Part shown: in pieces, positions 2,279-64,000 of the stretch
Numbering within the stretch: position 1 is the stretch's first letter
Layout: every line of letters starts with the position of its first letter
Assembly (NCBI GenBank): GCA_964023275.1
Contig: OZ029914.1
Coordinates: forward strand, 51,290,530-51,354,529
Direction of reading: 5' to 3'
DNA length: 64,000 nt
DNA from: Norana najaformis
Lineage: Eukaryota > Annelida > Clitellata > Crassiclitellata > Hormogastridae
Position numbers and translations under genes: made by a program
The notes under the pieces: generated by a model
The model's database searches: none
What the model saw: only the letters and a program-made list of their open reading frames with translations
Told to the model about the DNA's origin: nothing

Positions 2279-2345
2279 ATGGCAAAAACTGAGTTCAAGT
2301 TCCTTCTTTTGTGTATCTACAGTTTGCTGCCATCACCAGCAAAAG
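2279..2345 (+). CDS. Gene A exon 1: signal peptide
   Basis: Codes for MAKTEFKFLLLCIYSLLPSP followed by AK and one base of a Gly codon, then GTAAG. The pattern is a basic start, a hydrophobic core and small residues at the end, as in a secretory signal peptide. The start is fixed by identity with the signal exons of C, D and E (MA.. then FL.LC.LL). It ends in phase 1, matching the phase-1 acceptor of the Ig1 exon. Confidence 0.8.
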
Positions 2346-2688
2346 GTAAGATGACATTAAGTTGTTGAATGTTGATTTAAAGTGGATGACATACACCGTA
2401 GTTGCCTATCAACACAACAATTTTAAAATCATTTAACAAAATTTTTTTAATTATAAAATGTTAAATATACTATTACTTTTAAACTTATTGAAAGAGCAAC
2501 ACAAGAACACGTTTTAAGATGGTCGTTAGATCTTAGTAAGCCGAATTACCTGCTTTCCTATCACTGCGTATCAATTCAGCATGCCACAGATCGCAGTCCG
2601 TTACAGTAATGCAGCCGACAGTTAATGGCTTAAATTAAGCAAGTTAGCGTTAAAGAGATCAGTTAAGGTAATTGCTTATTTACTAATT

Positions 2689-3497
2689 CTTCCTTCTGGC
2701 TGGAATTAATCCCTCCTAGGGATGGGTCAGCCACATAAATCCTTCTTTTCCATTTGTTTCTATCTCCAGTATCTTCTTTCTTTAGTCTGAGAAGCTTTAG
2801 GTCTTGATGAATCATGTCTTCCCATCTCTTCTTTTGTCTTCCCCGACTGCGGCGTCCGTAAACCTCTGCTGCCATAATTCTTTTGATGCAGCTTTATCCT
2901 CTCTCCTCTTCACTTGACCATACCATCTCAACCTGGCTTCTCGTACCTTGTCAGATATACATGCCACTCCCAATTTCTGTCTGATATACGCATTCCTTTT
3001 CCTGTCTTTCAGTGAGATTCCATGTATCAATCGCAGCATTCTCAATTCCATTCTCTCCAGCAGCTTCTCTTCCTCTTTCGTCTATATCCAGGCTTCTGCT
3101 CCATATATCGTCACTGGTCTTATCATTGTTTTGTACACCTTTCCTTTCAGTTGAACCGGCATTTTGACATCGCATTATACTCTCGATAGTCTTTCCATTT
3201 TTGCCACGCTGCCTTAATCCTACTCTTAACATCATGTTTGCATCTCCTTTATCATTCATTATTGACCCAAGGTATTTAACGGTTTCTACTTGTTTCAGTG
3301 CATTTCCTGCTATGTCCTTGACCACAAGTGTCTCGTCCATTTTGGAGCATACCATGGTCTCTGTTTTATTGATGTTTATTTTAAGACCCTTGCTCTCCAG
3401 TGCTTTCTGCTAATCAGTGAAACGCCCTTGTGTCTTTGTCGCTGCGTCGTCTGCCACTATCAGGTCATCAGCATACAACATATGCCATGGTACTTCT
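2689..3497 (-). mobile_element. LINE fragment, reverse transcriptase end
   Basis: Reading leftwards from about 3480 there is LYADDLIVADD, the catalytic YADD motif of a non-LTR reverse transcriptase, then a thumb-type segment (ETVKYLGSIMNDKGD, about 3270) and an RGRQKKRWEDMI-type end typical of RTE-like LINEs. Several frame breaks are present. It is a 5'-truncated copy inside intron 1 of gene A. It is flanked by near-identical 14-base duplications, 2675-2688 and 3498-3511, which differ at one base. Gene D has the uninterrupted site near 43503. Confidence 0.8.
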
Positions 3498-3511
3498 CTT
3501 ATTTATTAATT

Positions 3512-5390: not shown

Positions 5391-5717
5391 GTGCATACGA
5401 ACCATGTGTATCGTCCTTAAGAAATACCGTCGTTTACGAGGGAACACCAGATACGATGTTCAGCTGTACAGCTGAACCCAAGAGCACGGCGTGGTCGGTT
5501 AGGCCAAATTCAGCTTCGGTTACATCTTATCAAATCACCGGTTTTAACGACACTGTTTCTTCTAATTTAACGGGACTCTACGCAATTAACGGATCCGGTC
5601 TAATTGTACGCAATGCTACTATAACGCCAACAGATGGTCCAATATCTACTGCTGGATTATACTTCGTGCGATTTCCAAACACCACCAACCAGACCGCGGC
5701 CAAATTAGTTGTCATCC
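5391..5717 (+). CDS. Gene A Ig1 exon
   Basis: A 327-nt exon of 109 codons, phase 1 at both ends (TTTCAG before, GTAAGT after). It encodes an Ig-like domain: CVSSLRNTVVYEG (A and A' strands), FSCTAEP (B strand Cys), TAWSVRP (C strand Trp), GLYFVRF (F strand, where the usual Cys is missing) and a final KLVVIR strand. N-glycosylation sequons include NLT, NAT and NQT. It is closest to Ig1 of D (44931-45260). An odd Cys near the N-terminus may replace the F-strand Cys as disulfide partner; that is inference. Confidence 0.8.
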
Positions 5718-8148: not shown

Positions 8149-8223
8149 TCAATGGTCAGATCTCGCTGGTATCATTTCAACTGTCTACTTTGGATCAGAT
8201 CTACTGGGACAAACTATTATCAG
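8149..8223 (+). pseudogene. Gene A IPT1 first exon, 5'-truncated
   Basis: Encodes QWSDLAGIISTVYFGSDLL then GQTIIR and a donor AG|GT, matching the second half of the D exon 52041-52185. The first half, which in D carries FVEPDFGPIAGGTKVTV, is missing: similarity stops sharply at about 8149 and unrelated sequence follows upstream. No acceptor in the right phase is evident. Confidence 0.75.
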
Positions 8224-8935: not shown

Positions 8936-9112
8936 ATCAGGACTTAACGTTACAGTATTAACTCCACCTGTTGACGAGTCAGCTATCGGTCAGTCACTGC
9001 TCATCACTGTTGAAATAGTTCCTGGTTCATTCAATGTTAGCACAAGCAAGTCCTTTACTTATGCACCGAATCCAGTGGTACACGACGTCAATCCAAAAAT
9101 TCTCACACTAAG
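8936..9112 (+). CDS. Gene A IPT exon (end of IPT1, start of IPT2)
   Basis: A 177-nt exon, phase 2 at both ends. Translation includes FTYAPNPVVHDVNPKILTLR in the same layout as D (52655-52831). FTY.PNP closes one IPT/TIG fold and V..V.P....... opens the next, as in plexin and MET ectodomains. It has several N-x-S/T sites (NVT, NVS). Confidence 0.8.
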
Positions 9113-10320: not shown

Positions 10321-10438
10321 TGGTGGTATACGGATGCACGTCTCTGGCGGCAACCTTTCATCTGTTGCCAGACCTCTCATGCGAGCTTTAGTTGTCGTAA
10401 AGAGAAGCAGTGGTTCATTCAGTAATGAAACTTTTGCG
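10321..10438 (+). CDS. Gene A IPT2 exon
   Basis: A 118-nt exon, acceptor in phase 2, donor in phase 0. It reads SGGIRMHVSGGNLSSVARPL followed by a strand-rich segment to NETFA, the GG..L.V.G.NL signature of IPT/TIG domains. It is nearly identical to D 54024-54141, so selection or recent conversion is possible. Confidence 0.8.
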
Positions 10439-11199: not shown

Positions 11200-11598
11200 C
11201 CGTGTGCACTTTCAACGGAACCAGATACTAAAATGACTTGTTTATCGCCTCCAATCTATATACCGGATGATTTTCTAGCTGTCTTATTCGGCAATAAGCA
11301 ATCACCTTACACAAACGAATACAGAAGGAGAAGAGCGGCCATCGACTCCATAAAGACCAATTCAAGACTAAAGCGTCAAAGTGAGGTCAAGCTATACACC
11401 AACGAAACTTATTCAGGAAAAAGTGATCAAGATAAACTTAATATTTACATAGGAGTTGTGTTCGATGGCTACTTAAGATACTTTGGTGACATACTTCGAG
11501 ATAATCCAGCACGGTTTGGGATATTCTTTCCTCCAAACCTTACATGCCCGGCTGAAAGCGATTTTGATCCACACACGGATGAATTCATAAAAATCAAG
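11200..11598 (+). CDS. Gene A membrane-proximal plexin-like exon with basic cleavage motifs
   Basis: A 399-nt exon, phase 0 on both sides, 133 codons. It starts PCALSTEP.TKMTCLSPP (end of an IPT domain), then a linker with YRRRRAA (11323-11334) and SRLKRQS (11365-11376), then IYIGVVFDGYLRYFGDILRD and NEFIKIK, which resemble the region before the last IPT repeat in plexins. The basic motifs fit proprotein convertase sites (R-x-K/R-R). Confidence 0.8.
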
Positions 11599-11878: not shown

Positions 11879-12052
11879 GGAGAAGAGATGAGTAGTTGCT
11901 GTAACGCAGGTTCGTATGTTATTCATCTCGGCAGTGATTTCTGCAATGTCACTGATCTTACCGATAACCAACTGACTTGTAAACCGCCTACGACCAAACC
12001 GGAACTGACACAATCTGACATTGACTTTTGTGGTCAAAATATCGCTATCCTT
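11879..12052 (+). CDS. Gene A last IPT exon
   Basis: A 174-nt phase-0 exon encoding SSCCNAGSYVIHLGSDFCNV and then DNQLTCKPP, matching the plexin/MET pattern of V.IG...C.V..L.D..L.C.PP. It ends just before the VEVGYRKY strand of the next exon. Counterpart in D: 57277-57450. Confidence 0.8.
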
Positions 12053-12267: not shown

Positions 12268-12411
<144 letters not shown>

Positions 12412-13338: not shown

Positions 13339-13791
13339 GTGGAAGTAGGTTACCGAAAATACAAGTGTTCCTGTCTGAGATACATCGACAACAGTGTCAC
13401 ACAACTCATCACCATAATCGTGGCGACTGTGGGTTCCTCGTTGGTTTTCTTCCTCGTCATTGTTCTACTTTCCGTTATCATCAAAAGGGTAAAGAATTCG
13501 AGAAAGAAACCTCATCCAGATGCTCAAGGTGATAGAGTAAGAGGCACGAGAGAAATGATGCCGATGTCCAGGGGACCAGAAACTAATAGACGAGACTTAA
13601 CGTCGGATGGTAGCAATCATGATCTTCAAACAGGGCGCGAAGATTACCACAGCTATATTAATCCGTCAGAGGGAGACGGTGGCTCTGTAAGAGGAAGTAG
13701 AAGAGGCAACTGGAACGAAGGCAGCCATAGAGGTAGACGCACGAATGATGAACTTTCAGACGATCTTTACTACGGCCGTTCTGGTGCAGAG
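13339..13791 (+). CDS. Gene A transmembrane and cytoplasmic exon
   Basis: A 453-nt phase-0 exon of 151 codons. It begins VEVGYRKYKCSCLRY (final IPT strand), then a helix of about 26 hydrophobic residues (LITIIVATVGSSLVFFLVIV and on), a stop-transfer KRVKNSRKK, and a polar tail with GTREMMPMSRGPETNRR and YHSYINPSE. Compared with D (58137-58739) it lacks 50 codons that in D carry most tail tyrosines. It keeps SYINPS, a possible Grb2-type Y-x-N site. Confidence 0.8.
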
Positions 13792-14924: not shown

Positions 14925-14990
14925 ACGCAAAACTTACCTCGAAGATATTTTAATCAAGACGGAAGTTACGGACACCGAATAAAGTACTAA
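14925..14990 (+). CDS. Gene A terminal exon
   Basis: Joined in phase 0 it reads TQNLPRRYFNQDGSYGHRIK, Y and a stop at 14988-14990. The D counterpart (59774-59839) differs at one residue (NS for NL). The strong conservation of this short end, with two further tyrosines, supports it as the real C-terminus of A and D. Confidence 0.75.
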   Translation, partial: TQNLPRRYFNQDGSYGHRIKY

Positions 14991-45617: not shown

Positions 45618-48600
45618 GTTGATGGGTCGATAACTTTAAAGACTTCCAGCGGCATAGGCGACATGATTAGTCGGGGGTACAATATCTGAATAGTAAAGGC
45701 AAAGTGAGTCCTGGCAGGGCTAAATAACATCTGGAAAAGCAGGAAAATCAGTAACAAGACCAAACTAAACGTCTTGAAAACATGTGTGTTTAGCACAGCT
45801 CTGTATGCAAGTGAGGCACGGACAATCAAAAAGACTGATCAAGATAAGATATTAGCATTTGAAATGTACTGCTATAGACGAATATCACATCTGAATTGGA
45901 CAATGAAGGTAAAAAATACGGAGGTCCGAAGAAGACTGAGCATAAAAGAAGATCTAATACAAGTAATAATGAGAAGGAAATTACGCTTGTTTGGACATAT
46001 ATGCAGGATGGATGACAGCAGAAAAATAAAAAGCGTGATGATGGGAATCATGGACGGAAATGGGAGACGAGGAAGACCTAATAGGGAGTGGGCAGATGAT
46101 ATAAGGGATTGGTGTAAGCAAGACTTGCACGCCTTGATAAAACAGCGCAAGATCGGGGTCTGTGGAGACAAGTGAGAATGCATGCAGTGGACACCTACGG
46201 GCTTTGGCCCATGGATCATGATAATAACTGGAGGAAAATTGAGGTGGTGTGGTATGTCAAGCGCTAAGACGCGAAGCCTCTGACGAGTAGAGAATCTACT
46301 ATGGGAAGCGTCATCAGCTCCCACCGGGGTTCAGGGCGCATCCATGGTAACCAACGCATTTTAAACCCATTAGTATGAAATTTAGCACATATGTGTGATA
46401 TTGGCTACTCAGCATTGTGTTATAGTCATATAACCGTCTGCAGAGCAAAGTCAAGAGTCACATTCTGAGGGCTAAACCTAACACATTGAATCGTATATTC
46501 ACAAATTCCAAGAGTACGGAACTTGGCCTTAGGGTTTCTAGATCCAAGAACTTCCAACCAGCTATTCCACTGGAGACTTCCTGAGCGCAGCAAGTTAGAT
46601 ATACTAACGATCTATTTTTGAGCAAGTGCGGCTATCACAAACCTTCTATTAAGCAACCAACGACTGTCGACCTGATGTTAAAAACGTCGTCACGGGCTGA
46701 GACTGAGCTCGTAACACTTCCTATATTAGAGACGTCTTGTTATAACCAACAGGAACCTGTTGCTACTTAAAAGGAGGAAATGCTGTTCTTGTTCTGTCTT
46801 GTCAAATCGGTATCTTATCTCTTATTTGCTTCAGATAACTTCTATTCACATACTCATTTTTGGTAAGCTGGCATAGAGATGATCGGCATCAAGCAAGCGA
46901 ATTTCAGTAGAACTTGTGATTAGAAAGAACCAAATGAGAGTCTTTGCGGCATTAAAAAAATGCAATTTTGGAACATACCTTTGGTTTAAAAGCCCAAATG
47001 CTACAAACTCATTACAAATGTAATCAGCAAATTAATTATTTTAAGTTACTATCAACAACTATGATCTGGAATATAATATTATTATTTTAAGTCATTGGAT
47101 TTCTTGCAGGTTCTGGTCCGATCTGTACCTGCAATCAGTCGGCTTCCGACGCCGTCACATTAACATGCACCATAACTTATGCAGATCATCCAGTCGCTCC
47201 GATAAATCCAATCATGAACTGTTCAGCCAATGATCAGTTCTATGCCAATGTAACAGCCAATAAGACCTCTGTTGACATCAACGTCTACAATTATACATTG
47301 ACCATCACCGTAAACGACAGCGTTCCTGCGGCCTATGATTGTCTTCTGACGTTGTCAGGCATACACCCAGTTGACGTCATTAAATATCCATATCTTGCAA
47401 AGAATGCGCCTGACTTCAGTGAAAGCTTTACAGGTGAGCGTATTTAAATTTTAAATTGAGTGATAATTGTCGGCAAATCATTTAATGAAATCTGACCGGA
47501 TAATTTGTCCTGCAACATCTGGTCCCTCGGCGACTGCATGGTCTCTACGTAACTGGTCCCGCAACAACTTATCTCACAACTGGTCACACTGTTGTCCCTG
47601 CGAATTGCTCTGAAAAAATTTTATTTATCACCTTTTACGAGCTCATAAAATTGGCAAATTTCAATTAAAGGCGAATTTAGACAGAGTTGGCATAAATTCA
47701 GAGTGAGACCTTAAATTAAAGTCTTTTAAATTGCACAGTAATTTACTCACGATTATTAAGCTGAAAAAAGAAAATGTTATGCAGCCGGCAGATAAACTAT
47801 ACTCCGAGGAAAGTCAAGTGTTCTAGTACAGTTCTGCCAGGACTTTCATTTTAATTTAATTTAATTTTTTCTATTTCCATGTGAACATTGAATGCACAAA
47901 TTTTATCGCATTTATGGCGCTACTAGCTACAGTATTAGACAGCTTTACCCATTTTAAGAATTATATATAGACTCAATCATGAACGGGATGAACGATAATA
48001 TTATTCATTCCATGACTTCACGTTGCCAATCCATCCTTTTTAGATCTTCACCGAATCGAAATCCAGGAGTTGGTCCTTGGTTGATCTCCTTCCCTAGGCA
48101 TTCTCCACTCTTTTTAGCACATACCTAACGTAAAAAAGCTGCTTCTGCTCGATTAACCCGAACAGGCTCCTCTCTACTCCCATAGTCTCCAGCACCCACT
48201 TTTTTGTCTTCTTGGCAGCCCATAGCACTTTAAGAGTCTGTCGCAGACACACCATTTTAAATACGTTGATTCTTGCATGTTAATTTTATCTGTCCAGCTC
48301 TCTCAGCCATACACTGGCGCTGGCCACACAAGAGCTTTCTTTGTTGCAAGCACTATGCTGTGACTTTTCCATACCTTCTTCAGTGCTTCTCAACACCTTG
48401 TTCTTTTGCCGATCTTGACCGAATCTCTTTCCTGCATTCAGAGATCTCCTTTTGTATTGAACCATGATATAAAAATGTCAACTTGCTCGAGTTGGTTGTC
48501 TTGTATTTCAGCAGGTTGTACAACGCGTAACCACGTTCTTGGTTTTATCCAAATTCCCTGCCATCGGTACATCGCAGATTTGTAGCTTTTCTCTTATTTG

Positions 48601-51600
48601 AATTCCACAGTCATAACCGTCCAGCACTGCCCTTATGAACATCTCTGCCAGGATGTTGAATATTTATGGTGTGATTAGACAGGCCTGTTTTCCTACTCGT
48701 ATTTGGCTTTTGCGAATTCTATTTGCAGTCTGCGATGTAGCAACAACTACCAGGGAAGTGTCTACGACTGAATCACCTACAGCTGCTCTGATATCAACTA
48801 CTGCTAAAACGTCTTCGACCACAGGTACACAATCAACAATAGCAGTAGACTTACGACCAACTGAAGCAAGTTGTGTCAACTTCTTTAAAACTGAGTTCAA
48901 AGTAGATCAAATTAGTTTTAAATATCGTTGCTTTTATAGTTATATTTGGCGAACAGGGTCCGCACCAGACAGTTGCTGTTTCAAGAAAAAACATGATATG
49001 CTAGGCAGATTGTAAAGAAACCGTATTTAATGTCAGGCTTCGTAAATTGTCTCACGACTACCAACGATTTCGGGTTCGAACCTCCTTAGCTTATTCGGTG
49101 TAAGAACACCAGACAAATTGTCTGCGTGCATATGTCTTCGTCATGAACCGGTGTAAAGTCGTTTCTTAGGTGCGATTTTTAACTTAGTTTGATGGTTGCT
49201 TGACTAAACATATCAAGTCATTCTCTAAAATTACGTTATACGTACATTCGAAAATAATTAACATGAAATTGTCAAGATGACGCATTTGAAAGACAGTGTA
49301 TGAGCTCACTTTTGTGTTGACATTTCTTTTAGATGCTTCATATTCTTAAACTTGAATAATAACACTAGAAGCAAGCTTATCATGTGACAATGATCTTGAA
49401 TTAGTTTACGATTGCATCAGACCTTCGTAAAGCACGAAAGAATGCTATTTTGACAACGGTAACTGTGACTGTTTTTGTTCTGTGTGTCTATTTAAGTGCA
49501 TCTGTCTTTGATTGCCATTGCATGCATTTGTTTCTCTCAGTTAGGACCAATACATCCACAATTACAACTACAAAGACTCCCATCACCACCAACACCACCA
49601 CCACAGTCACCTTGTCGTCTACCCGTGGATCCAGCCCGAGCGGACCACATACAGGAAGTAGCATGCAAATATCTACGACTAAACCACCCACATCTACCCT
49701 GCTACCAACTACAGCTACAACGCCTTCGACAACAGGTACACAGTGAACAATAACAGTAGACCTACCACCTTTTGTACAGGTACAGAGGGACAGGAATACA
49801 GTGTAGATGTTGATCTTGTATGAAATTGAATCAATACTTAGTTTTCTACTGATCGATTTTTTCGTAATTAGCTCTTGATTCTTTAATACGCTGTTGGCTG
49901 AGGTTTTTCGTCCTTGTCAGTAGTTCTTGCTTCGTTATGGATTCGATACTTCATTGTTAAGTGCTAGCCACATGAGGATATTAATATAAGCATGCTGACT
50001 TTGCATTTGACACAACTATTAAAGTTAAGTGTGCAACAGAGGAAAGAGCATGACCTGATTTTTGAACACAGTATATATTTTCTATTTGGGTTGCATTAGT
50101 TAAGCCTTTTATGGAATGTTTAGCAAATTTGAGTTGTTACTCATCTGATCAATGCTACGAATGCAAATGTTCCTATGATAGCCTACGGTCCATTAACTAT
50201 TTAGCGCAGGTTCATTTTGAATGAGTTTATTTATGGTATTAGTATCTTTAAGGCTACATAGTGAATTTTTGCTATTGGTCTTGAACAACTAAATTTGCAA
50301 GTCTTAGATCTGTCTTGGAGCAATTGAGGAAATGGAGCTCAATCGTCAGTTTCATTTGTAATTATCATAATTATTCGTACGGTGTAGAGTAGGTTTTATT
50401 TATAGACATGTAGATGAAAATTCATGGTTCATAAATGGGTGACTCTGGCGGCGAACTCAGCTTAGCATAGCCGTCACCAATGCTGTATGAAGTTCAGCTC
50501 TGCGAGATCCTCCTCCACTCTCAAATCCAGGTTGTCCTAGGTCGACCATATGATCTTCTCCAATCGCTCAAGGTCGTGCTCACTGCGGCCCACACAGATT
50601 TCCAGTTGTGCTTGTCTTTCGGAGGGCGAACGAAAGGCCTAAAGAAGAGCAGTAGACATTTTCAGCACAGACCGGTAACAGCGCCTTACTGCTTCTAATC
50701 TTGATGTTGCTGTCATTGTCTGAGTAGCAAAACCTTCTGAGGCACTGCATGGCAAAGGTGTCAAGTGGCAAGGTGGCAGAGCTTACCGTAACCCGCAAGT
50801 CCACAGGTGGCTGATGGTGGAATGTTCTCCAGTGAGGAGTTAAGCTGCAAAATAAGCTGAGATTTCCCAGTGAATAAGCAGTCGCAGACCAACAACACAG
50901 CTGTCATCAGGTAGCGGGGGCGATCGGCGGCATTATCTGCCTGACAAATACAGCAGACACCCCAAGACGAGAGTATGTTATTGAGAGTACAGACAGATAT
51001 TGAATAATCTTGGCTTCCATTGCCGAGTGGGTGATTCCAAGAGGAGATCCTAGCTATGAGAGATAACCCAGAGAGGGTGGACTGGATGTCTGCATTTAAT
51101 CGGTCAGCAGTCTACCCCATTCCTGCCTGGAAATCGGTGGAGAAAACAAAGTTTTGTTCTGGCAATTTACCGAGGTTAAAAGTGTCACAAAGAAAAGGCA
51201 GTACACTGTTTGAAAAGTTTTATAAGAAAACTGTTGATAAATTTGCCGTAAAACTTTAAACTCTGAAGAGTCAAGTGTGAAGTTAATCAGTTCAACGCGT
51301 TTGCATTCACATAAGTCCTAATTTTAAAAAGAAATATCAAAAAAGACATGTTTTCTAGGAAATTTAAATTTAAAATTGCGTTGACAGTGGTTCAAAACTT
51401 GTTTCGTGAATAGTTGTATTTTGAGTTTTATTTAGTTGTGCATGCCCGTTAATTATATTTTCTCGTGTCGTAATCGATTTTTACCACTTTCGTGTTGTTC
51501 AATGCCAAGCAGTGCATGGGAGCTTATGAGATGCAGATAGTGGCTTCTTATTTACTTGATTGCGTCAGCTTTCCACTCAAACTGTTGGAACAAACTCCAA

Positions 51601-54600
51601 TCCTTCTGTACCAACAACAGTGAAGGTTGACTTGTTAAATTTAAAATGAACGAAGCTCATGCCTTAATCATACACAGGGGCACGGTAGCCGAATTGATAG
51701 AGCTCTTGGCTTGTAACCTGGAGAGTACGGGTTCGAGCCTCCCCTTAGACGGTTACTGTATAGGGACCTTGAGCAAGTACTTCACTCACAATTGCTTCGC
51801 ACCTCAGATTCATATTTACTTACTTGCGCGCGTAATAAGTGTAACATAATAATAATAATACTTGTTTTGTCTTATATAGACTTCTTCGATGCTTGGCTAG
51901 AAGTGTTTTTGAGTGGTACTATTTTAAGTTAGAGGCATACATAGATTTCTTTCTGGATAACAATCACCAACTGTTCTTTTCTTATTTTCCTTGACCATTG
52001 AATGCAGAAAATAAACATAGTTCTATTTATTCTTTAGCAGCCACCTTTAACTTCTTCGTGGAGCCAGACTTTGGTCCGATAGCCGGAGGAACGAAGGTTA
52101 CAGTCATCTGTCAATGGTCAGATCTGACTGGTACCGTCTCATCAGTCTACTTTGGATCACATCTACTGGGACAAATTATTACCAGGTTTAAGCAAGTATT
52201 TTCCATATTACAAACCACAATATGAATCGGTTGTTTGTTTATTGTCGACACAAATTCTATGTGTTAAACTAATTTTTGGAAAAGGGTTATAAAACACCAT
52301 TTGCTAACTGAGAACATATATAGGCTTTTGTATTTGGAATCAACAAGAAACAACAAAATCCAAAGTCTTTTGTGACACCTGGAGTGTTGCAAATTGGCTT
52401 TCACCAATTTATTGTTCCAGATCCATTGGATATAAAATCCATACAATAATTGGTTTTTCCAGCTGTATGCGTATGTTTCGCCTTTTTCTAATGGTACGTT
52501 GTTAGATAAGACTAGTTTTATGCATAAGGCAGAACAGCTAAGACCAAGTATTTACCCTTGTAATTAAAAACGTTCATAGATTAGTTACCAAATATCAAAT
52601 ATTAATAAAGGAATTGCGATGTACTTATTGTTTGTTTAAATTGCTCTTCTTTAGATCAGGACTTAACTTTACAGTATTAACTCCACCTGTTGACGAGTCA
52701 GCAATCGGTCAATCGCTGCCCATCAGTGTTGAAATAATTCCTGGCTCATTCAATGTTAGCACAAACACTTCCTTTACCTATAAACCGAATCCAGAGGTAC
52801 ACGACGTCAGTCCAAAACGTCTCACTTTAAGGTGAGACATTATCTGGGAGAGGGCGAAAATAATGAAGTTAAATCACGCATCTTAAAGACGAATGTTGAG
52901 TTCCTGAATCTTGTTCAACTGAACGTTTTACGGTGTAATTGTCATAGAATTTACGTAGACTTCCCGGAATTTTATGTTGAGATACAACATTTGCTTTTTC
53001 TTTTGTCTTATCGCTGTGTTCAGTACTTTATAAAAGTGTTATGTAAATAACAATTAATTAATTATACACATGTCTGCAGCCATATTGATCGTGCTTGACA
53101 GTTTCTAAGGCCTGCGCAAAATTTGCTAAAATATTTTCGTTTGTTCGGACTTTTGTGACTGAGTCTGCATTGCGGTATATTTTATACTCGATCCCGCCAT
53201 TGCTTAAGTGCGCTCTTGACGATTTTCGTCCCAAGGGATCTATACCACGCTGGCACTGTTAACCCGTCGACTACTGGTGGAAAGTTTAGCATTCAGAAAT
53301 GTCAAGGTCGAAAATCTGGAGAATCTTTTGTCGAAGGAAGGGCGAGAAGAGTCTGTGGTATGGTATCAACCATGGAAAGGTTCTGTCACCAATCGATGCC
53401 CTGCTTAAATGTGCTTGATTAATAGGCGTCTGAATGCTGCTCCATCTGCCAACTCTGAGGGACTGCTGGACGGTGAGGCAAACGTACGCCGCTGGCTATG
53501 ACCTCCATCGCCTGTCGTTTCTCATTCTCCATACGACGAGGTCCAGGAACTCTGAACATGATGTCGATTGGGTCAGCTCTGGAAGGAAATCCCTTGGTTT
53601 GGCTCATTTGGGTGGACCAGTGTAAATAGTAAAAGACTGGCAGACATTATGCTAAATCCTAGAATGCAGAGAAATTAAGCAAACTGAATCATCTCAAGAT
53701 CTGATTTTATAATCGAAACAAAAGAACTTGAACGAAAAAAGAACGTCTCCGCCTGCAAATAACTTTAAATTGACCCCCAATCGAACAGCGGTCTAAAACT
53801 GTTTCGTAGGCATTTTATTCCGATATTTAACCAAATACATGCAAGGATATCCAAAGTGGAATAATAAGATACATCAGAACATAACTAGGCCCATGTTGAA
53901 GCCTAAATGCATTTTACGGTTTAAAATTGAGACTGCAATTTCTATAGACTCCATATTTGTATGTCATGACAATGTATTGACATTCCTGGACATTTGTAAA
54001 CGGAGAAGTTCTGTCTGTTTTAGTGGTGGTATACGGTTGCACGTCTCTGGCGGCAACCTTTCATCTGTTGCCAGACCTCTCATGAGGGCTTTAGTTGTCG
54101 TAAAGAGAAACAATGGCTCATTCAGTAATGAAACTTTTGCGGTAATCAGCAATCGATTTACTTTTTTAATAACTTGATATGCCTAAAAACATCTTATTCC
54201 ATTCATCTTCTCATAACTTATAATTCACAAGCTATAGTGATTGCAGATCTATCTGAGAGCTAACAAAGCAGCTGGTTCAGGTTGGATATAAAATCTTAGT
54301 TTGCAAAAATAGTGGGACATTGGTTTATTTGACAAAACATTTGCTGATTCAATAATGGGTACATTTTAACTTTTATGTGGTTTGAAAATTGTTGTGCCTT
54401 GAACCAAGTTTTAATTTTAAACTGATTAGGAAGGAATAACGAAGTGACAGTTATTTCAATAGCCCACATAATTAAAATAACTCGCAAGTACAGTATCTTT
54501 CACGTGGTCGAATCTTTTCCAATCAATAGAAACATTGGATTTAAAGAGGATTTGTTGAACTCTATGACTGCGCACTGCCGAAGACATTGAGCAAAATGCT

Positions 54601-57600
54601 AATACACAGCCTTATTCTTACAAGACTCGACTATTGCAACTCTATAGTCTATGGCCTTCCTGAGTGCACACTTCTTCCCCTAACTAAAATACTACACCAG
54701 GCTGCAAGACTGTGTCTTGGACTTTCATACCGAGATAACATCACTCCTGCTCTTTGTTCTCTACACTGACTTCCAGTATGTGAGCGTATCCGCTTCAAGT
54801 TGGCTCTCTTCGTGTTCAAAGCATGTTCAAATCATCTGCCATCCTATTTATCATCCATAGTTACACCCTGTAACTCTGTTAAAGGCCGATCCTTTCTTTG
54901 GTCAGCATCTGCTGGAAAATATGTTGTTCCTCGCATACGTCTCGTCTTTGGCCGGCGTTTATTCTCAGTTTCTGGTCCCTCCATCTGGAACTCTCTACCT
55001 CCTTATGTTCGTGACTCTCCTGCTGAGGCTGTCTTTTGCTCTGACCTTAAAACTTACCTCTTCCAGTCTGCTTATGGTTCTTAATACTTTGCATAACCTG
55101 GCTTCAAGTGCACTTCTGAACTTGGTATGGAGGGCATTAACAAATTTTAGTTATATTGTATTGTGTATTGTATTGTTAGTTAAACTGTGCAGCTTTACTT
55201 ATTTACTTTTATGTAACGCAAAAGGTACTATTGCGCTAGTCAAACGTTCCATATTTGTGCTGAATATTATATAGGTATCCGGACGATCGCACATAGGACT
55301 TTCACACATAGGACTATCCCACATAGATTTTCGCTCATAGGTCTGTTGCTCATAGGATCACCGCACATAAACCCTTCGCACATAGGATGTTTGCTCGTAA
55401 GACTATCGCTCATAAGACGTTAGCTAATAAATGAACGCTGGAGATACGTTCGCTTTGAAGTGAACTCAACAGATTTAAACACGGTACAGTATATAAAGGC
55501 ATCGTAAGAAAGCTTAATAGAAAAGTTATTTTCATCTGTCGCAAAGCATAATTCGCAAAGTTAACGAAGTTGGCATGAAACTAGATTATGAACGAAATGA
55601 TGAGGTGCGTGGATCAGTACGTTGTCTCGCGGCGCTAGCGTTTGTACCTGTCAATGACATCGTTGAGTCATTCGAGATCCTTGCTGAGTCAATGCCACAA
55701 ATTGAACATATGGATGAACTACTTAGTTACTTCGAGCATACGTACATACGTGGTCGTCGTCTGAGGGGTCGAATTGCAAATTACGGACCCCCCTTATTCT
55801 CCATCGAAACATGGAATCAGCGTGACGCTGCCGCTGATGGTTTAGCAAGAACGACGAACATTGTGGAAGGTTGGCACCACGGCTACAGGTTTTATTGCAG
55901 TGCAGTCACCCGACATTGTGGAAATTCCTATCAGAACTCAAGAACGACTGTTCGAAGCAGAAGGCATCATTTCTACAGGGATCAACAGGTACAGAACAAC
56001 CAGCCGTCAAACGCTACCGAATCCTTCGAGATCGCGTAATGAGGGCAGTAGCCACTTATGGGCAAACAGATATTCTAACCTACCTCCGTTCCATGGCGTA
56101 CTTATCGTATAACTAGATATTTTCTAAACTTGTAACGGTGAACATTTATATAATTAAATACTACGTGCAGTTAATAAAAATATGAATATGAATAACAATA
56201 ACAATAGCCAATATTAATTTTTTTCATAATCGGTGTTCTATGTTTTTTATGTTGGAAGCTTAATAAATTGGTTCAAATAGTACAAATATGAGTGATCGTC
56301 CTATTAGCAAAAGCCCTATGAGTGAAAGCCCTATGAGCGAATGTCTTATGTGCGATCGTCCTATGAGTCCCAGTCCTATGTGCGATCGTCCTATGAGTCA
56401 CAGTCCTATGTGCGGAAAGCCTATGTGCTATAGTCCTAGAATCATTATATAAACCATGTCGTACATACTATTTTCGAAAGAATATGCCAATTCTGCAACT
56501 AGACTTATATTTAACAATTCATATTAGCGGTTTATATTATTAGTAATATTCATAGGTTGCGTGGCTGTGTGATTTTGTTATTAGTATCTCGTCCTATATG
56601 ACATTTTAGCTGCATGGTTATGAACTGTTTTTAGCCCTGTGAACCTTCAACGGAACCAGGTACTAAAATGACTTGTTTATCGCCTCCAATCTACATACCG
56701 GACGATTTTCTAGCTGTCTTATTCGGGAATAAGCATTCACCTTACACAAACGAATATAGAAGGAGAAGAGCGGCCACCGACACCGTAAAGACCAATTCAA
56801 GACGAAAGCGTCAAAGTGACGTCAAGCTATACACCAACCAAACTTACTCAGGAAAAAGTGATCAAGATAAACTTAGTATTTACATAGAAGTTGTGTTCGA
56901 TGGCTACTTAAGATACTTTGATGATATACTTCGAGATAATCCAGCACCGTTCAGGATTTTCTTTCCTCCAAGCCTTACATGCCCGGCTGAAAGCGATTTT
57001 GATCCAAATACGAATGAATTCATAAAAATCAAGGTGAGCGTTTTGACCCCAATTGATGCACTGGTCCATTTTAAAGTCTTAATCTTACGTATCTTTGTAT
57101 GTTAGAATACATTGATCAAATTATCATATTTCGTTAGACTACATGTTGTAAAGCATATAGGGTTTATAATTGCTGAAATGTTTAATCGCGTCTATAGCAA
57201 TTGCTGTGGAAAACCATTTCCGTTTTAGCACATCTCTTTATATACGTTTATGTATTATTTTTCAAACTCTGAACAGGGAAAAGAGATGAGTAGTTGTTGT
57301 AACGCAGATTCGTATGTTATTCATCTCGGCAATGATTTCTGCAACGTTACTGATCTTACCGATAACCAACTGACTTGCAAACCGCCTAAGACCAAACCAG
57401 AACAGACACAGTCTGACATTGACTTTTGTGGTCAAAATATCGCTATACTTGTACGTAATTTGATACTATTTTAGTGATACACTAATAATGCGCAAAAGTA
57501 AGTTAGCTATGCTTTTGACGCAACAGTCGGCCGATCAGTAAACGCAGTTTATCAGAACAACCTAAACGTTCAACCTTTATCAAATAGACCTATGAAATAA

Positions 57601-59839
57601 CTACTATTCACAAATATCCCATGATCAGTCAAGCACTTGTAGTTTTAAGAATGTTTAATATATATCTGCAATGCTACATTTATGACAAGCATTTGTAACT
57701 ATTGTGGCAATTAGGTAAATCTATGGATAGGACAATTAATAAATGTATATTGCACTAGTATAAAAAAACATATTTCACCATTACACAATCCAATCAGTAA
57801 CTTACTATTGTTTATCGAAACACAACTTCACCTAAACTGCCACAACGATTTTGGTTTTAACTAATGACGCCTAAATACCCTAATCTCAGAACTTAGCTCT
57901 TTTGGTTCTAAAGAATTAAGAAGTTTGCAATTATAATTGACTCCATTTGATTCGAACTGCATCGGATGTTTATGTAGAGGATTTTTCATAGTAAATAAGC
58001 ATATTTCGTAACTGATAACGAAAAATAATTTATGACATTCCAATGTGCTTATGTAAAATATATACTAACGTTTATTATTTATCCATTTCTTTACAACATA
58101 TATTTACACTTTATTTTTATATAATAAAATGTTTAGGTCGAAGTAGGTTACCGAAAATACAAATGTTCCTGTCTGAAATACACCGAAAGCAGTGTCACAG
58201 AACTCATCATCATAATCGTGGCGACTGTGGGTTCCTCGTTGGTTTTCTTCATCGTCATTATTCTAACTTCCGTTATCATCAAAAGGGTAAAGAGTTCGAA
58301 AAAGAAACCTGACCAAACTGCTCAAGGTGATAGAGTAAGAGGCACGAGAGAAATGATGCCGATGTCCAGGGGACCAGAAACTAATAGACGAGACTTAACG
58401 TCGGATGGTAGCAATCATGATCTTCAAACAGGGCGCGAAGATTACCACAGCTATATTAATCCATCAGAGGAAGACAATTACAGAGGCCAATCGTATAATG
58501 GACACTATGCAAGAACTATTGAAGGGAGCGACCACACGGGAGGGAAATATAAAGATTCCGATGACCACGACGACTACCTTGAAAGAAGTGATCGAGGCTA
58601 TAATCGTAGTTCACCAGAAAATGGCAATGGCTCTGTAAGAGGAAATAGAAGAGGCAACTGGAACGAGGGCAGCTACAGAGGAAGACGCACGAATGATGAA
58701 CTTCCAGATGATTTTTACTACGGCCGTTTTGGTGTAGAGGTAGGCTTCACTTTTGAAATGAGCATAACTATTTTCCTTGAATGAGTTTGCATTAATGAAA
58801 TGGTCCTGTTTTCGGAGAATCAATTGATTGCTTGCTTCAAAATTACAAGAAAAATGTTGTCATTAACTGTTTGAGGAGGATTCTGGCATCCATTGTCAGT
58901 TTGCCGACTTAGCAATTTTTATATCTATGAACAAGGATTTTGTCCTTTCTAGTATTCATTAAAATATTATGGCTTGAAATTTTATGAAAGTGATAAGTGC
59001 GCCGCTCTATCAGCCACAATATGTGCCTCTTTATCCATCTGACCATTAGTGACCGCTCATGAGAAAATGGCATCAAAGTGCTGTAAATTTTCGCGAAATA
59101 CGCTCTGAAAGCCAGTGGTCATAAATTTGATAAAACTCAGTTCTTTGCATATTTGTATTCCCTGTTGTGTTAGCTATCATTCTTTGAGTTCTTATGCAAA
59201 GTGTCGATCGATAAGTATTTTTATTTTACATTTTGTTACCATGCCCCGCAACAAATGCTAAAGTTTACATGTCCTTTTGGTACCCTAATTTAAGGTCGTG
59301 TGCATCAATTATTATACTTGTGACTCAGTCATCTAGGTTTCCCTCTGAATCAGCTTTTCATGAAGATTTTACTAGTGGCAGTCTCAGGGGCTTATTAGAA
59401 CACTACAATTTACTACTTTTATAAACATTCACAACCTCCAAGGCACAACAATTTAGGTTGAGTCAAAGTTATGACATGCTTTAACTCAAAAGCAGCAACA
59501 AATACACCTATATATTTAAAACAATTATCGTCTTACTATTTGTGATAGAAACAAGCGGTTTTCATCAAATTATTCAGCAATTTAAGCCCCATCTGGAGCG
59601 ATATCAAACTCATATTTTATTTTTGCCGACTTTGGTACCCTTTTCACATATCCGATCTTATTTGCGTAAACTTGCTTAAGGACCTATGAAAGCAAAATAT
59701 TGATTATACTTAGGGATAACAAGTGACAAATTAGATTACGTATGTTTACAGTTTGTTTCCTTTATCGCTTTAGACGCAAAACTCACCTCGAAGATATTTT
59801 AATCAAGACGGAAGTTACGGACACCGAATAAAGTACTAA
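42976..59839 (+). CDS. Receptor gene D: complete Ig-Ig-stalk-IPT-TM receptor, 12 exons
   Basis: Exons 42976-43042, 44931-45260, 47110-47433, 48729-48824, 49541-49735, 52041-52185, 52655-52831, 54024-54141, 56635-57033, 57277-57450, 58137-58739, 59774-59839. They sum to 2694 nt with all phases matching and no internal stop: 897 residues. Layout by residue: signal peptide 1-22, Ig1 23-132, Ig2 133-240, Thr-rich stalk 241-337, IPT/TIG repeats and plexin-like region 338-697 with basic motifs at 526-529 and 540-543, TM 698-723, Tyr-containing tail 724-897. The IPT-to-membrane part is plexin/MET-like, but there is no Sema domain, no RasGAP and no kinase. It is probably a cell-surface recognition receptor; ligand and signalling are unknown. 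It is the reference copy for judging damage in A, B, C and E. Confidence 0.85.
43043..44930 (+). other. Gene D intron 1
   Basis: Aligns with intron 1 of A and E and lacks the LINE at 2689-3497 and the insert at 4275-4850 that A has. No other feature. Confidence 0.55.
44931..45260 (+). CDS. Gene D Ig1 exon
   Basis: 330 nt, phase 1 both sides. AYEECVTTLRNTVVYEGTLD, FSCAAEPKSTAWSVRP, then GLYRVQFANNTNQ and KLIVIR. An Ig-like fold with B-strand Cys and C-strand Trp; the F-strand position that normally holds Cys is Val (YRV). Cys near the N-terminus is conserved in A and E. Several N-glycosylation sequons (NFT, NQT, NAT, NNT). Confidence 0.85.
45559..45618. repeat. (GA)n microsatellite
   Basis: Interrupted AG/GAGG repeat, next to the LINE end that follows. 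Confidence 0.9.
45620..46340 (+). mobile_element. LINE 3' coding fragment in gene D intron 2
   Basis: LNVLKTCVFSTALYASEART, then FEMYCYRRISHLNWT and LRLFGHICRMD, GRRGRPNREWADDIRDW: the end of an RTE-like reverse transcriptase (LYG.E.W, FEM..YRR, FGH..RM, GRP...W.DDI). The open frame covers about 45774-46175. Confidence 0.8.
46341..47109 (+). other. Gene D intron 2, remainder
   Basis: No feature recognised before the Ig2 acceptor TTCTTGCAG. Confidence 0.5.
47110..47433 (+). CDS. Gene D Ig2 exon
   Basis: 324 nt, phase 1 both sides. GPICTCNQSASDAVTLTCTI (B-strand Cys), IMNCSANDQF, AAYDCLLTL (F-strand Cys) and NAPDFSES. Where C and B have Trp in the C strand (VMTW) this copy has Asn-Cys (IMNC), a rare loss of the core Trp in an otherwise open domain. 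Confidence 0.8.
47434..47999 (+). other. Gene D intron 3, first part
   Basis: A/T-rich, no feature recognised up to the LINE. Confidence 0.5.
48000..48705 (-). mobile_element. LINE reverse-transcriptase fragment abutting stalk exon 1
   Basis: Minus strand from about 48705: IRVGKQACLITP, IFNILAEMFIRAVLDG, then later EKLQICDVP and further on KRVENA, similar to the QGC.LSP.LFN..AE and following motifs of RTE-like reverse transcriptases, with many breaks. Its edge lies only about 23 bases before the stalk exon at 48729. Confidence 0.65.
48729..48824 (+). CDS. Gene D stalk exon 1
   Basis: 96 nt, phase 1 both sides. VCDVATTTREVSTTESPTAA and LISTTAKTSSTTG: a Ser/Thr-rich segment for O-glycosylation. 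It ends STTG|GTACAC exactly like stalk exon 2, so the two are duplicates. It starts with V-C like the giant exon of gene C. Confidence 0.75.
48825..49540 (+). other. Gene D intron 4
   Basis: Around 49030-49090 there is CGGGTTCGAACCTCC, a Pol III B-box-like piece of a tRNA-derived SINE related to the one at 51676. Nothing else recognised. Confidence 0.4.
49541..49735 (+). CDS. Gene D stalk exon 2
   Basis: 195 nt, phase 1 both sides. VRTNTSTITTTKTPITTNTT and on to SISTTKPPTS-like and TTATTPSTTG endings (the second segment reads MQISTTKPPTSTLLPTTATT). A Thr/Pro-rich mucin-type stalk of 65 residues, against about 2660 in gene C. Confidence 0.8.
49736..52040 (+). other. Gene D intron 5
   Basis: No exon. 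50440-51050 has a denser, repeat-like composition, with a minus-strand frame at 50580-50804, and may be an old mobile-element fragment of unknown family. A SINE follows at 51676-51860. Confidence 0.45.
51676..51860 (+). mobile_element. tRNA-derived SINE with (TAA)n tail
   Basis: Head GGGGCACGGTAGCCGAATTG (A-box region) and GGGTTCGAGCC (B-box), then a body with TTGAGCAAGTACTTCACTCA and a TAATAATAATAA tail. The anticodon-arm region is not tRNA-like enough for a functional tRNA. Confidence 0.7.
52041..52185 (+). CDS. Gene D IPT1 exon, first half
   Basis: 145 nt, acceptor phase 1, donor phase 2. FFVEPDFGPIAGGTKVTVIC and later VYFGSHLLGQ: the P..GP..GGT.VT... start of an IPT/TIG domain as in plexin and MET. 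An acceptor three bases earlier (CTTTAG, giving one more Ala) is also possible. Confidence 0.85.
52655..52831 (+). CDS. Gene D IPT exon (end of IPT1, start of IPT2)
   Basis: 177 nt, phase 2 both sides. LNFTVLTPPVDESAIGQSLP, then FTYKPNPEVHDVSPKRLTLR. It closes IPT1 and opens IPT2. Confidence 0.85.
52832..54023 (+). other. Gene D intron 7
   Basis: Paralogous to 9113-10320 of gene A, with the same antisense frame of about 62 codons at 53419-53607. No exon. Confidence 0.55.
54024..54141 (+). CDS. Gene D IPT2 exon
   Basis: 118 nt, phase 2 to phase 0. SGGIRLHVSGGNLSSVARPL then VVVKRNNGSFSNETFA. GG..L.V.G.NL is the IPT signature. Confidence 0.85.
54563..55180 (+). mobile_element. LINE 3' end with (ATTGT)n tail in gene D intron 8
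   Basis: LTRLDYCNSIVYGLPE, then LPVCERIRFKLALFVFKACS, RLFSVSGPSIWNSLPPYVRD and FCSDLKTYLFQ: LDYCN..Y, LP...RI.FK, WN.LP..R and LK..LF are the canonical end of CR1/L2/Jockey-group ORF2. A TGA interrupts the long frame once (about 54768). It ends in an ATTGT microsatellite. Gene A lacks it at the same point (after GGATTTGTTGAAC, about 10857). Confidence 0.85.
55274..56443 (+). mobile_element. MULE (Mutator-like) DNA transposon with repeat-array ends
   Basis: 1170 bp. It is flanked by ATTATATA on both sides (55266-55273 and 56444-56451), an 8-bp target duplication; gene A has the single site ATAATATA. The ends are inverted arrays of a unit of about 17 bases around CGCACATAGGACTAT (left 55274-55440, right about 56285-56443). 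Inside, 55575-56112 encodes the C-terminal part of a MULE transposase (NYGPPLFSIETWNQRD, TNIVEGWHHG, then in another frame HPTLWKFLSELK), with the catalytic N-terminal part missing and one frame change. It is a deleted, non-autonomous copy. Confidence 0.85.
55575..56112 (+). pseudogene. MULE transposase C-terminal fragment
   Basis: Two overlapping frames cover the fragment: one from 55575 to about 55890, then another to the stop at 56110-56112 ending in ATYGQTDILTYLRSMAYL. P-F...WN..D....G..R..N..EGWH is the hallmark C-terminal block of MULE transposases. The DDE residues would lie upstream and are not present. Confidence 0.75.
56635..57033 (+). CDS. Gene D membrane-proximal plexin-like exon with basic cleavage motifs
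   Basis: 399 nt, phase 0 both sides, residues 485-617. MTCLSPPIYIPDDF ends an IPT domain; then YRRRRAAT (56758-56769) and SRRKRQSD (56800-56811); then IYIEVVFDGYLRYFDDILRD, PSLTCPAE and NEFIKIK. RRRR and RRKR fit proprotein convertase sites, and plexins and MET are known to be cut in this way in their ectodomains. Confidence 0.85.
57277..57450 (+). CDS. Gene D last IPT exon
   Basis: 174 nt, phase 0 both sides. SSCCNADSYVIHLGNDFCNV then TDNQLTCKPPKTKP and FCGQNIAIL. This matches the plexin/MET C.V..L.D..L.C.PP pattern. Confidence 0.85.
57451..58136 (+). other. Gene D intron before the TM exon
   Basis: Empty-site counterpart of the gene A intron 12053-13338: it lacks the MITE and has only a very short TA run. 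No other feature. Confidence 0.65.
58137..58739 (+). CDS. Gene D transmembrane and cytoplasmic exon
   Basis: 603 nt, 201 codons, phase 0 both sides. VEVGYRKYKCSCLKY is the final IPT strand; LIIIIVATVGSSLVFFIVII and on is the membrane helix; KRVKSSKKK is stop-transfer. The tail has GTREMMPMSRGPETNRR, YHSYINPSE, DNYRGQSYNGHYAR, DDYLERSDRGYNRS and ends DELPDDFYYGRFGVE. It is rich in Tyr, Asp, Arg and Gly, with no known catalytic domain. SYIN fits Y-x-N (Grb2 SH2 type) by consensus only. Confidence 0.85.
58740..59773 (+). other. Gene D last intron
   Basis: Paralogous to 13792-14924 in A. No feature recognised. Confidence 0.55.
59774..59839 (+). CDS. Gene D terminal exon
   Basis: TQNSPRRYFNQDGSYGHRIK, Y, stop TAA (59837-59839). 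It joins in phase 0 after FGVE. Acceptor ATCGCTTTAG is identical in A. Confidence 0.8.
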   Translation, partial: TQNSPRRYFNQDGSYGHRIKY

Positions 59840-61563: not shown

Positions 61564-61581
61564 GAACAAACATCTTGCAAA
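61564..61581 (+). promoter_or_regulatory. Short conserved block before gene E start
   Basis: GAACAAACATCTTGCAAA, about 40 bases before the ATG at 61619, shared with A, C and D. Confidence 0.45.
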
Positions 61582-61618
61582 GCAGAATATGGTCATCTAT
61601 CGAGACAACACATACGTG

Positions 61619-61673
61619 ATGGCAAAGTTCCTTCTCTTGCTTATTTGCATTCTGCTTCTAACAACAACAAACG
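61619..61673 (+). CDS. Gene E exon 1: signal peptide
   Basis: MAKFLLLLICILLLTTTN and one base of Gly, then GTAAGC; phase 1. Four codons shorter than the other copies between MAK and FLL. Confidence 0.8.
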
Positions 61674-64000
61674 GTAAGCCATTGACATAATGCACCATAG
61701 TTGCTTATCAGCACAATTTTTAGATCATTTGCCCAAATTGTTTATAATCGAAAGATGATGGGAAATATATTATCATCTTTATAATTATTAAATGAACAAT
61801 ACAGGAACATGGTTTCTAGATGGTCGTCAACTCTTAGTGAGCCGCATAACCTACAGTGGATATTGTTGTCTATCGATTCTACAACATGCTGTGGATTGCA
61901 GACTGTCGCGTTAAAGAAGCCGACCGTTGCGATTCTATGAAATGGGTCAAGTGAAGTAATCGCTCATTTACTAAATGCCTCATGCAAAATAAATCCCTGG
62001 AGGCTTGGTCCAATGATTCGACAAAATTTCGGATTCAATAAAAACACAACTACAATAGTTCAGCAAATGGAAAGTACATCCCCGAAGGGTTACATGGTTT
62101 GCCAACGCAATGTACGTTTTGTCATGATGCACCGGAATTCGCACAGCTGACGTAGAGGTCAAAGGCAAACGAACGCCTTCTCTAATGTATCAAGCTAAAG
62201 TAGTGTTGTGCAACAGCTGTAAATGAGAAACCACTCAACCGATCAACGTTCTAAAGATCTCAACCGAAGTCTATTCTAAAGCGACACCCAATATAAATGT
62301 ATGTGACGTGTTGGCTTTAACTGTGTGCAGGCTGGTCGCAAATGTATTCCTTATTGTCGGTGTTGTGTTGCATAGAGAACTTGTGACCATGAAGCCTATC
62401 GGGTTCGGTCTCCGCTCAGCCTATTCTAGTGACATTAACGAAGAATGGCACGTCACCGACGTATAGACCTAAAACAGTTATGTTTTATAAGCAAAACCGA
62501 TTTTCGTATTACAGAACGTCAATTAATTTACGTTCAAGTGGAATGTAACTTTTAAAATCTACAATTATCACAAATTAGCTGTTGTAAATCATATGACTTC
62601 TAATTTCAAAACTCTCCTAGTCTTTTTCGTTGCACTCTTTCTCTTTCCTCCTTTATCGAAATGGTCAATGAGACGCCTATTTCAAGGTGTAAGTGGGTTC
62701 AAGCCTAACCCTAAATGCACGATAATACAAATGTGGACAACTATCAATTGCAAACAACCAACCTTTTACGGTACTGGCACCGAATATGTTAAAGAGTAAC
62801 ATGACTGTAAATTTTACGAAATATTCACCAGTGAATTCCTGAACGCATGAGTTCAAATTCAGAGTAGGGTTTGTGAGTCATTCTTAACAAGCGCTTCGCA
62901 AATATTCAAATGCATGCAAAGGGAAATATAATGATGAATCAACACTTTGGCCATATAATTGTGAAACCGGTGTGGTGACATTTAATCACGCAACACTTCA
63001 TCACTCCTGCACTTAATTACGCAGACAGTAATTCACATCTATATTAAAATTTAAAACGGCTAAGAAAATACAAGATGGGCAAGAATTTAAAAATGGAATG
63101 CTTTTTATTTTGTTAAACATGTTAAGGTGACCAATAACTATAATAAGTACATAAACTATTATTTCGCTGGAAGAATGACATTCAGCTATTTTCTTTAGCC
63201 TTTCTTCCAACATCGATGTCTCTTTGAAACAGCGGGTTCCACATCATGCAGTAATACCTTGAAATAAGAGCTTTTGCATGTGCGAATAGTATATATATTC
63301 TGCGTGAACGTCCACAGCAGTCGATGGTGGCAGTGGAAGACAGCTTGTTAAGGGCAACCTATGCAGCGCATGGCCCAGCGTAATTCGTGGTTTGTTTCAC
63401 AATCACTTTTTGTGATAGCTCCTAAATCGAGCGCACTATGCTGAAATATTTCATTAATGCAGCGTTACGGTAGAAATGCCTTCTCGAAATCAGCAAGTAT
63501 ACTTTCAGGAGCCTCAAGAGGAATTACATTTTATTTTTAACCTTGCCCAATCAGTAAAATTTATATATCACTTTGCTTATTTTCTGCGGCGTAGCAAATT
63601 CCAACAGCCGTTATAATATTCAGTAGCATAGATTACCAGTGGACACTGAATACGAAATTACATCACTATTGCCAGAAATTGTTTCAGGTGCATATGAACA
63701 ATTTGCGTCGTCCCTAAGAAATATCGTTGTTTGCGAGGGAACAATGAATACGACGTTAAACTGTACAGTGAATCCTGGTCGATTAGGCCAACTCATAGTA
63801 GGCCTACATCTTCTTCATATAATTGTTTTCATGTTTTCACGCAGTTGCATACCAGGATTGCGTGACGACCCTAAGAAATACCGTCGTTTATGAAGGAACC
63901 CTGGATACGATCTTGGGCTGTTCAACTGGACCCAACGGCTCGGCGTGGACGGTTAGGCCAACTTCAAAGGCGCTTACAGCTAATCAAATCACCAACTTTA
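61619..64000 (+). CDS. Receptor gene E, partial (runs off the window)
   Basis: Signal exon 61619-61673, a shortened Ig1 exon 63688-63790 and a second Ig1 exon from 63845 that is open to the window end. All junctions are phase 1. It is of the A/D Ig1 type (VVYEGTLDT). What follows (Ig2, stalk, IPT, TM) lies outside. Its intron 1 aligns with those of A and D. As far as visible the gene could be intact if the shortened Ig1 exon is skipped. Confidence 0.7.
61674..63687 (+). other. Gene E intron 1
   Basis: Paralogous to intron 1 of A and D up to the GACACTGAATACGAAATTAC stretch before the acceptor. 63000-63640 is extra relative to D. No exon or mobile element recognised. Confidence 0.5.
63688..63790 (+). 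pseudogene. Gene E first Ig1 exon, shortened
   Basis: AYEQFASSLRNIVVCEGTMN, then LNCTVNPGRLGQL: the first third of Ig1, after TTTCAG. A piece around the C strand (PKSTAW) is lost and the sequence diverges after CCAACTC. The N-terminal Cys of the family is Phe here. The open frame runs on into intron-like sequence. Confidence 0.65.
63845..64000 (+). CDS. Gene E second Ig1 exon, cut by the window end
   Basis: After TTTTCACGCAG: VAYQDCVTTLRNTVVYEGTL, then LGCSTGPNGSAWTVRPTS. It keeps the N-terminal Cys, B-strand Cys and C-strand Trp of the A/D type. It is open to the last base. Confidence 0.75.

Follow-up and report, generated by a model that had tools for sequence, protein, structure and literature searches.

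The 64,000-nucleotide window analysed here (C2:51290530-51354529 of the Norana najaformis genome, which has 608,420,607 bases in 17 contigs) belongs to a large tandem complex of predicted receptor genes, in which related immunoglobulin (Ig)-like domains are joined to differing stalks and tails. It ends about 446 kb short of the end of the 51.8-Mb contig C2, and the cluster runs past it on both sides. This conclusion is drawn from the sequence, namely from the exon anatomy of the genes, their copy number and clustering, the differing ends of neighbouring genes, and their separation from the plexins. A typical gene starts with a signal peptide and two domains, Ig1 and Ig2, on phase-1 exons. The alternative ends are a Thr/Pro-rich mucin stalk of very different length, an IPT stalk with a YxN tail, or a Gly-rich membrane helix with a tail resembling an immunoreceptor tyrosine-based activation or inhibition motif (ITAM or ITIM). 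The products would be modular cell-surface receptors, some perhaps secreted, and their likeliest job, which we consider probable, is self/non-self or pathogen recognition.

Organisation of the window

Five plus-strand units emerge when the open frames and the DNA itself are compared: A (about 560-15590; positions without a contig name are those of the window), B (15660-21430), C (22000-39670), D (40170-60430) and E (60600 onward). Five related genes on one strand had been proposed in a first-pass annotation, and the comparison bears this out. Of the modules said to be shared, Ig1 sequence was found in each of the five units, which also have non-coding modules in common; the signal exon was found in A, C, D and E, and none was noticed in B. 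The wider description of the locus, as a tandem set of modular receptors built of Ig, mucin and IPT parts and bearing tails of two types, is supported.

Gene D

The model of gene D has 12 exons and 11 introns, and as judged from splice sites and frames all introns are GT-AG, the phases are consistent and there is one terminal stop, giving 897 residues. From the 5' end they encode a signal peptide, the domains Ig1 and Ig2, a Thr/Ser-rich part (two exons), the IPT part (five exons) and the membrane helix together with most of the tail, the rest of which is on a final exon. That exon is assigned from a conserved donor, an acceptor and a sequence almost the same in A and D; it is also present in E and in F, a unit beyond the window.

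With the IPT exons of D joined, Pfam TIG is matched at 2.2e-8 in three stretches, and the solved structures that this part matches best are plexin-A2 (1.8e-5), plexin-A1 (3.4e-5 and 6.3e-4) and the HGF receptor (0.0018). The earlier reading of the A/D-type end as plexin-like IPT repeats with a Tyr/Arg-rich tail is upheld. Scanned one by one against Pfam, the IPT open frames reach 0.0071 at best, which misses the cut-off, and an exon-by-exon TIG search of the genome gave 32 matches, none inside the complex. The Ig part of D matched no Pfam Ig model. These models match few members at all, the best values being 0.0038 for Ig1 (one of 15 sequences matched) and 0.00026 for Ig2 (one of 12).

Of 12 copies of the IPT2b exon that were compared, 10, including those of A and D, carry a furin-type R-x-[K/R]-R site, at identities as low as about 31-38%; copies L018 and L019 are without it. 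The main tail exon reads YINP in A and D and YINS in E and F, and the last exon of D carries YFNQ. YxN is the motif recognised by the Grb2 SH2 domain. The main tail exon has no YxxI/L/V motif in any of these four units.

Relationship of A to D

Units A and D align in blocks from about 560 and 40630, respectively, through 15590 and 60430, in exons and introns alike, with D 45273-52111 having no long counterpart in A. Non-coding identity over seven aligned blocks is 79.8% (4337 of 5433 columns), and exon identity runs from 76% for the signal exon to 98% for the last exon. This divergence is too high for two haplotypes or an assembly duplicate, and A and D are therefore paralogues; assembly duplication, which the first-pass annotation had named as a possible source of the copies, is ruled out by the non-coding identity. 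In the tail exon A and D match exactly over 144 nt, and near the last exon over 65 and 61 nt. By position, A 13521-13664 and D 58319-58462, and likewise A 14936-15062 and D 59785-59911, are identical or nearly so in surroundings about 80% alike, one of the two stretches being partly non-coding. They could reflect either gene conversion or strong constraint.

Two kinds of membrane end

Two membrane ends had been described, and both were found: A and D (and, beyond the window, E and F) have the IPT type, and B has the Gly-rich helix. The YxxL/I tail attributed to the second type is broken by stops in B and open at one upstream place. The helix occurs in B and at three places upstream, at window positions -9780, -23784 and -48019; it follows Ig1 and Ig2 in B, and a signal exon and Ig2 upstream (-15923, -14476). 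The tail beside the -48019 helix is open and contains HYETL, STYEKL, KPYDSI, EYQSV and EYEII. Read with the consensus patterns for ITAM and ITIM, YEKL-x10-YDSI fits ITAM spacing and STYEKL fits ITIM. The other two upstream tails match this tail in pieces only, and a YxxI/L/V-type tail is open in one of the four Gly-rich-helix tails seen. No Ig exons were found for the open-tail gene in the upstream DNA examined.

For the IPT2b exon there are 17 matches, four in the main cluster, three near 36.7-36.8 Mb, seven near 41.4-41.6 Mb and three on C12; the membrane-tail exon has 13 in total, of which the lowest-ranking are weak and some are two pieces of a single exon. Since these matches are few, most Ig1/Ig2 pairs of the main cluster appear to be without an IPT end. 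Within 10 kb of an A/D-type gene at 51.66 Mb there is a Thr/Ser-rich open frame of 783 residues, and neither an IPT exon nor a known membrane exon was found there.

Extent, copy number and separation from plexins

When the genome was searched with Ig1 of D, 85 matches were obtained, 83 on C2 and two on C6, and with Ig2 of C there were 89, of which 87 were on C2 and two on C6; for families of this size such counts are lower bounds, and they are not gene counts, because partial matches are included. In the main cluster the Ig1 matches number 65 and span 683 kb, and there are 68 Ig2 matches; 62 of the 65 have an Ig2 no more than 5 kb away on the plus side. Other, smaller groups on C2 lie at 36.2, 36.7-36.9, 40.2-40.4, 41.4 and 42.26 Mb. 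At 41.43 Mb lies a distant relative in which a V-like Ig frame containing both cysteines is accompanied by other Ig-like open frames and by related IPT exons; this suggests that the Ig-IPT receptor family is old.

Exon matches to the plexin cytoplasmic, GTPase-activating domain (PF08337) number 39 and fall at roughly eight sites on C1, C2 (33.69 Mb), C4, C6 and C10, none of them inside the complex (C2:36.2-42.3 and 51.0-51.8 Mb). Gene D is thus no ordinary single-copy orthologue of a known developmental receptor, the other outcome raised in advance, with 83 of the 85 Ig1 matches on one contig and the plexin signalling domains elsewhere. The suggestion of many pseudogenes stands in part: B is one, and stops occur in only four of the 85 Ig1 and six of the 89 Ig2 matches, a count of stop codons, with frameshifts and splice sites outside it.

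At C2:51201918-51223182 there are head-to-tail Ig1/Ig2 pairs with equal scores, mostly at a spacing of 2,239 bases, which may be either a very recent expansion or an assembly effect.

Constraint on the exons

The ratio of non-synonymous to synonymous substitution rates (dN/dS), summed over 15 A/D-type Ig1 exons that are the best-scoring of the 85 matches, is 0.86 (105 of 105 pairs usable, 18 of them above 1); a simple parsimony count on the tree gives 0.84. For Ig2 it is 0.49 (nine sequences, 36 pairs). Among the IPT exons the values are 0.47 for IPT1b (five of six pairs usable), 0.42 for IPT2b (six pairs) and 0.16 for IPT3 (five of six pairs), and for the membrane-tail exon 1.23 (six pairs, four above 1). 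Between C and D, dN/dS is 0.28 for Ig1 and 0.30 for Ig2.

The other units of the window

Unit A is truncated: Ig2 and the mucin exons are missing, and the first IPT exon has lost its 5' half; its signal, Ig1, IPT1b to IPT3, membrane-tail and last exons are open, and the splice sites inspected are kept from Ig1 on. Unit B is a pseudogene, because Ig1 is frameshifted, Ig2 has a TAA and has lost its donor, and the tail is broken by stops. In unit C the order is signal exon, 8-kb mucin exon, Ig1 and Ig2. Its frame change near 27490 sits in a run of A and could be either genuine or an assembly error. Downstream of Ig2 in C there are hydrophobic open frames, among which no membrane exon was recognised. 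Beyond the window, unit E continues with Ig1, Ig2, all IPT exons, the membrane-tail exon and the last exon, these being open, with splice edges that resemble those of D.

Table 1. Exons and exon remnants of units A-E, in window positions.
Unit	Feature	Position	Strand	Remarks
A	Signal-peptide exon	2279..2345	+	End by alignment to D
A	Ig1 exon	5391..5717	+	Open, splice sites kept
A	Remnant of first IPT exon	8149..8223	+	5' half gone
A	IPT1b exon	8936..9112	+	
A	IPT2a exon	10321..10438	+	
A	IPT2b exon	11200..11598	+	Furin-type site
A	IPT3 exon	11879..12052	+	
A	Membrane helix and tail exon	13339..13791	+	About 150 nt shorter than D, in frame
A	Last tail exon	14925..14990	+	Inferred
B	Ig1	18028..18342	+	Frameshifted
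B	Ig2	18785..19101	+	In-frame TAA, donor lost
B	Gly-rich membrane helix exon	19643..19789	+	Phase 1-1
B	Tail remnant	20078..20416	+	Kin of upstream ITAM/ITIM-like tail, stops inside
C	Signal-peptide exon	25348..25414	+	End approximate
C	Mucin exon	26118..34105	+	42-nt Thr/Pro repeat, about 187 copies; single frame change near 27490
C	Ig1 exon	34873..35211	+	
C	Ig2 exon	35696..36019	+	
D	Signal-peptide exon	42976..43042	+	
D	Ig1 exon	44931..45260	+	
D	Ig2 exon	47110..47433	+	
D	Mucin exon 1	48729..48824	+	
D	Mucin exon 2	49541..49735	+	
D	IPT1a exon	52041..52185	+	
D	IPT1b exon	52655..52831	+	
D	IPT2a exon	54024..54141	+	
D	IPT2b exon	56635..57033	+	RRKR furin-type site
D	IPT3 exon	57277..57450	+	
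D	Membrane helix and Tyr/Arg-rich tail exon	58137..58739	+	
D	Last tail exon	59774..59839	+	Inferred; ends ...RRYFNQDGSYGHRIKY then stop
E	Signal-peptide exon	61619..61673	+	End approximate
E	Extra Ig1 copy	63690..63779	+	Truncated
E	Ig1 exon	63845..64000	+	Continues beyond window

Between the exons there are open frames at 55521-56036, 45708-46172, 2951-3409 (minus strand) and 54770-55084, which we take to be transposon pieces (MULE-like and LINE-like fragments); they gave nothing above the cut-off against Pfam. One intron of A contains a long AT dinucleotide repeat (12270-12412).

Elsewhere in the genome, a decayed nuclear copy of mitochondrial DNA lies at C15:410569-413760 (L012), with COX1 preceded by a stretch read as ND2. 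Taking AGA as Ser, the COX1 copy gives INMRWSGLRLERIPLF, an annelid pattern; AGG/AGA at two conserved glycines would instead point to a tunicate, a reading rejected because the copy is decayed. Eryth_link_C, the annelid haemoglobin linker family, has 29 matches in the genome (best 8.1e-32), control genomes being silent, and a cluster of weaker matches at C5:36.72-36.88 Mb is a possible further tandem expansion. By these two markers an annelid host is probable. Tunicate GH6, molluscan haemocyanin and GFP, the last bearing on a lancelet origin that was considered and rejected, had no matches, which says little since none appeared in the control genomes either.

Interpretation

As a locus type, a clustered immunoglobulin superfamily (IgSF) receptor complex is supported, and for its function we infer from the anatomy that recognition is the best reading. 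Mucin stalks, ITAM/ITIM-like tails, dense tandem clusters and decayed copies are more typical of recognition loci. In such a receptor Ig1 would be the binding tip and Ig2 its base, with the mucin or IPT stalk keeping the tip off the membrane, and through the furin-type site the ectodomain could be cleaved or shed. Tails with YxN would recruit Grb2-like SH2 adaptors and YxxL/I tails Syk/SHP-like SH2 proteins; since these are different partners, we propose that related heads feed different outputs. A more specific scheme sees a protostome complex for immunity or allorecognition whose V-like Ig1 and C1-set-like Ig2 make up a single antigen-receptor-like ectodomain; exon shuffling would have put this ectodomain onto plexin-IPT/YxN, ITAM/ITIM or mucin ends, so that one shared kind of recognition head gives opposed outputs. 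In this complete form we think the scheme unlikely. The dN/dS values among paralogues, higher for Ig1 than for Ig2 and the IPT exons, suit a recognition role. Ig1 is weakly constrained among close paralogues yet is open in all 15 of them, and in the parsimony count on the tree none of its 47 testable sites is significant for positive selection at P<0.05 (lowest 0.081).

The same genes might instead be lineage-specific adhesion or guidance receptors for tissue or neural wiring, the paralogues serving as a cell-identity code outside immunity and allorecognition. The plexin-like IPT stalk, the purifying constraint on the IPT exons and the largely stop-free Ig matches all suit that role, but the mucin stalks, the ITAM/ITIM-like tail, the dense tandem clustering and the decayed copies fit recognition loci better, and we regard it as rather unlikely. 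Weak constraint on Ig1 among paralogues would also be expected of a gamete (sperm-egg) recognition family diversified through mating rather than immunity, and mucin repeats suit reproductive proteins as well; nothing in the complex specifically favours such a family, which seems to us very unlikely.

Decay is evident in B, which is dead, in the truncated A, in the broken frame of C, and in two of the three upstream Gly-rich-helix tails that match in pieces only. That the whole is mostly a decaying array with few working genes is nevertheless very doubtful, given the low number of stop-bearing Ig1 and Ig2 matches, the intact model of D and the open exons of E. Least probable of all is that the A/D genes are plexins that have lost parts and act as semaphorin decoys. 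The alignment of D with plexin-A2 has one significant IPT stretch, and a later one in the same order scores 3.8 bits, but the signal peptide of D is joined in phase to Ig1, and none of the 39 plexin cytoplasmic matches falls inside the complex. A complex of recognition receptors, our preferred reading, would with its plexin-type stalks and two tail types be a new and testable case of such receptors being assembled from shared modules, and it offers a locus to genotype and to test for self/non-self or pathogen recognition.

Comparison with known systems

To our knowledge, clustered Ig recognition complexes have been described in few invertebrates. Among open-licence papers, a scope that makes the negative weak, no receptor family combining Ig and IPT domains was found, in allorecognition or among plexins. 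Plexins have IPT repeats up to the membrane, as in D; unlike them, D has N-terminal Ig-like domains, mucin exons and a Tyr/Arg-rich tail, and the complex is without the plexin cytoplasmic domain. No Sema domain was matched in the parts of D scanned (the mucin exons and most of the tail were unscanned, and no genome search with PF01403 was made).

The Hydractinia Alr complex is likewise a cluster of IgSF genes that includes many suspected pseudogenes, and its Alr1 and Alr2 are single-pass transmembrane proteins (PMC11067881); ITAM or ITIM motifs are reported among Hydractinia candidates (PMC12065747). The complex described here resembles it as a cluster of predicted IgSF type I receptors with pseudogenes. 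It differs in its IPT domains, a word absent from the main text of PMC11067881, and in that polymorphism is known in Hydractinia, whereas the present complex was read in one genome.

In Botryllus, the fester co-receptors (FcoR) form multigene haplotypes, with a variable-type Ig and further Ig domains and tails bearing ITIM, hemITAM or YxxI/L/V motifs (PMC12065747). The YxxI/L/V tail is the point of likeness with the open Gly-rich-helix tail; on the other side, FcoR has a sushi domain and genes paired with FF, neither of which was seen in the scanned parts of D (the complex as a whole was unscanned). Finally, TgrB1 and TgrC1 of Dictyostelium are transmembrane recognition proteins that are polymorphic and that bind and recognise through their IPT/TIG domains (PMC12324515). 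They share with the A/D type the presence of IPT/TIG domains in transmembrane proteins, but they belong to an amoeba and have another architecture, and in the complex described here it is the IPT domains that are conserved and Ig1 that is more divergent.

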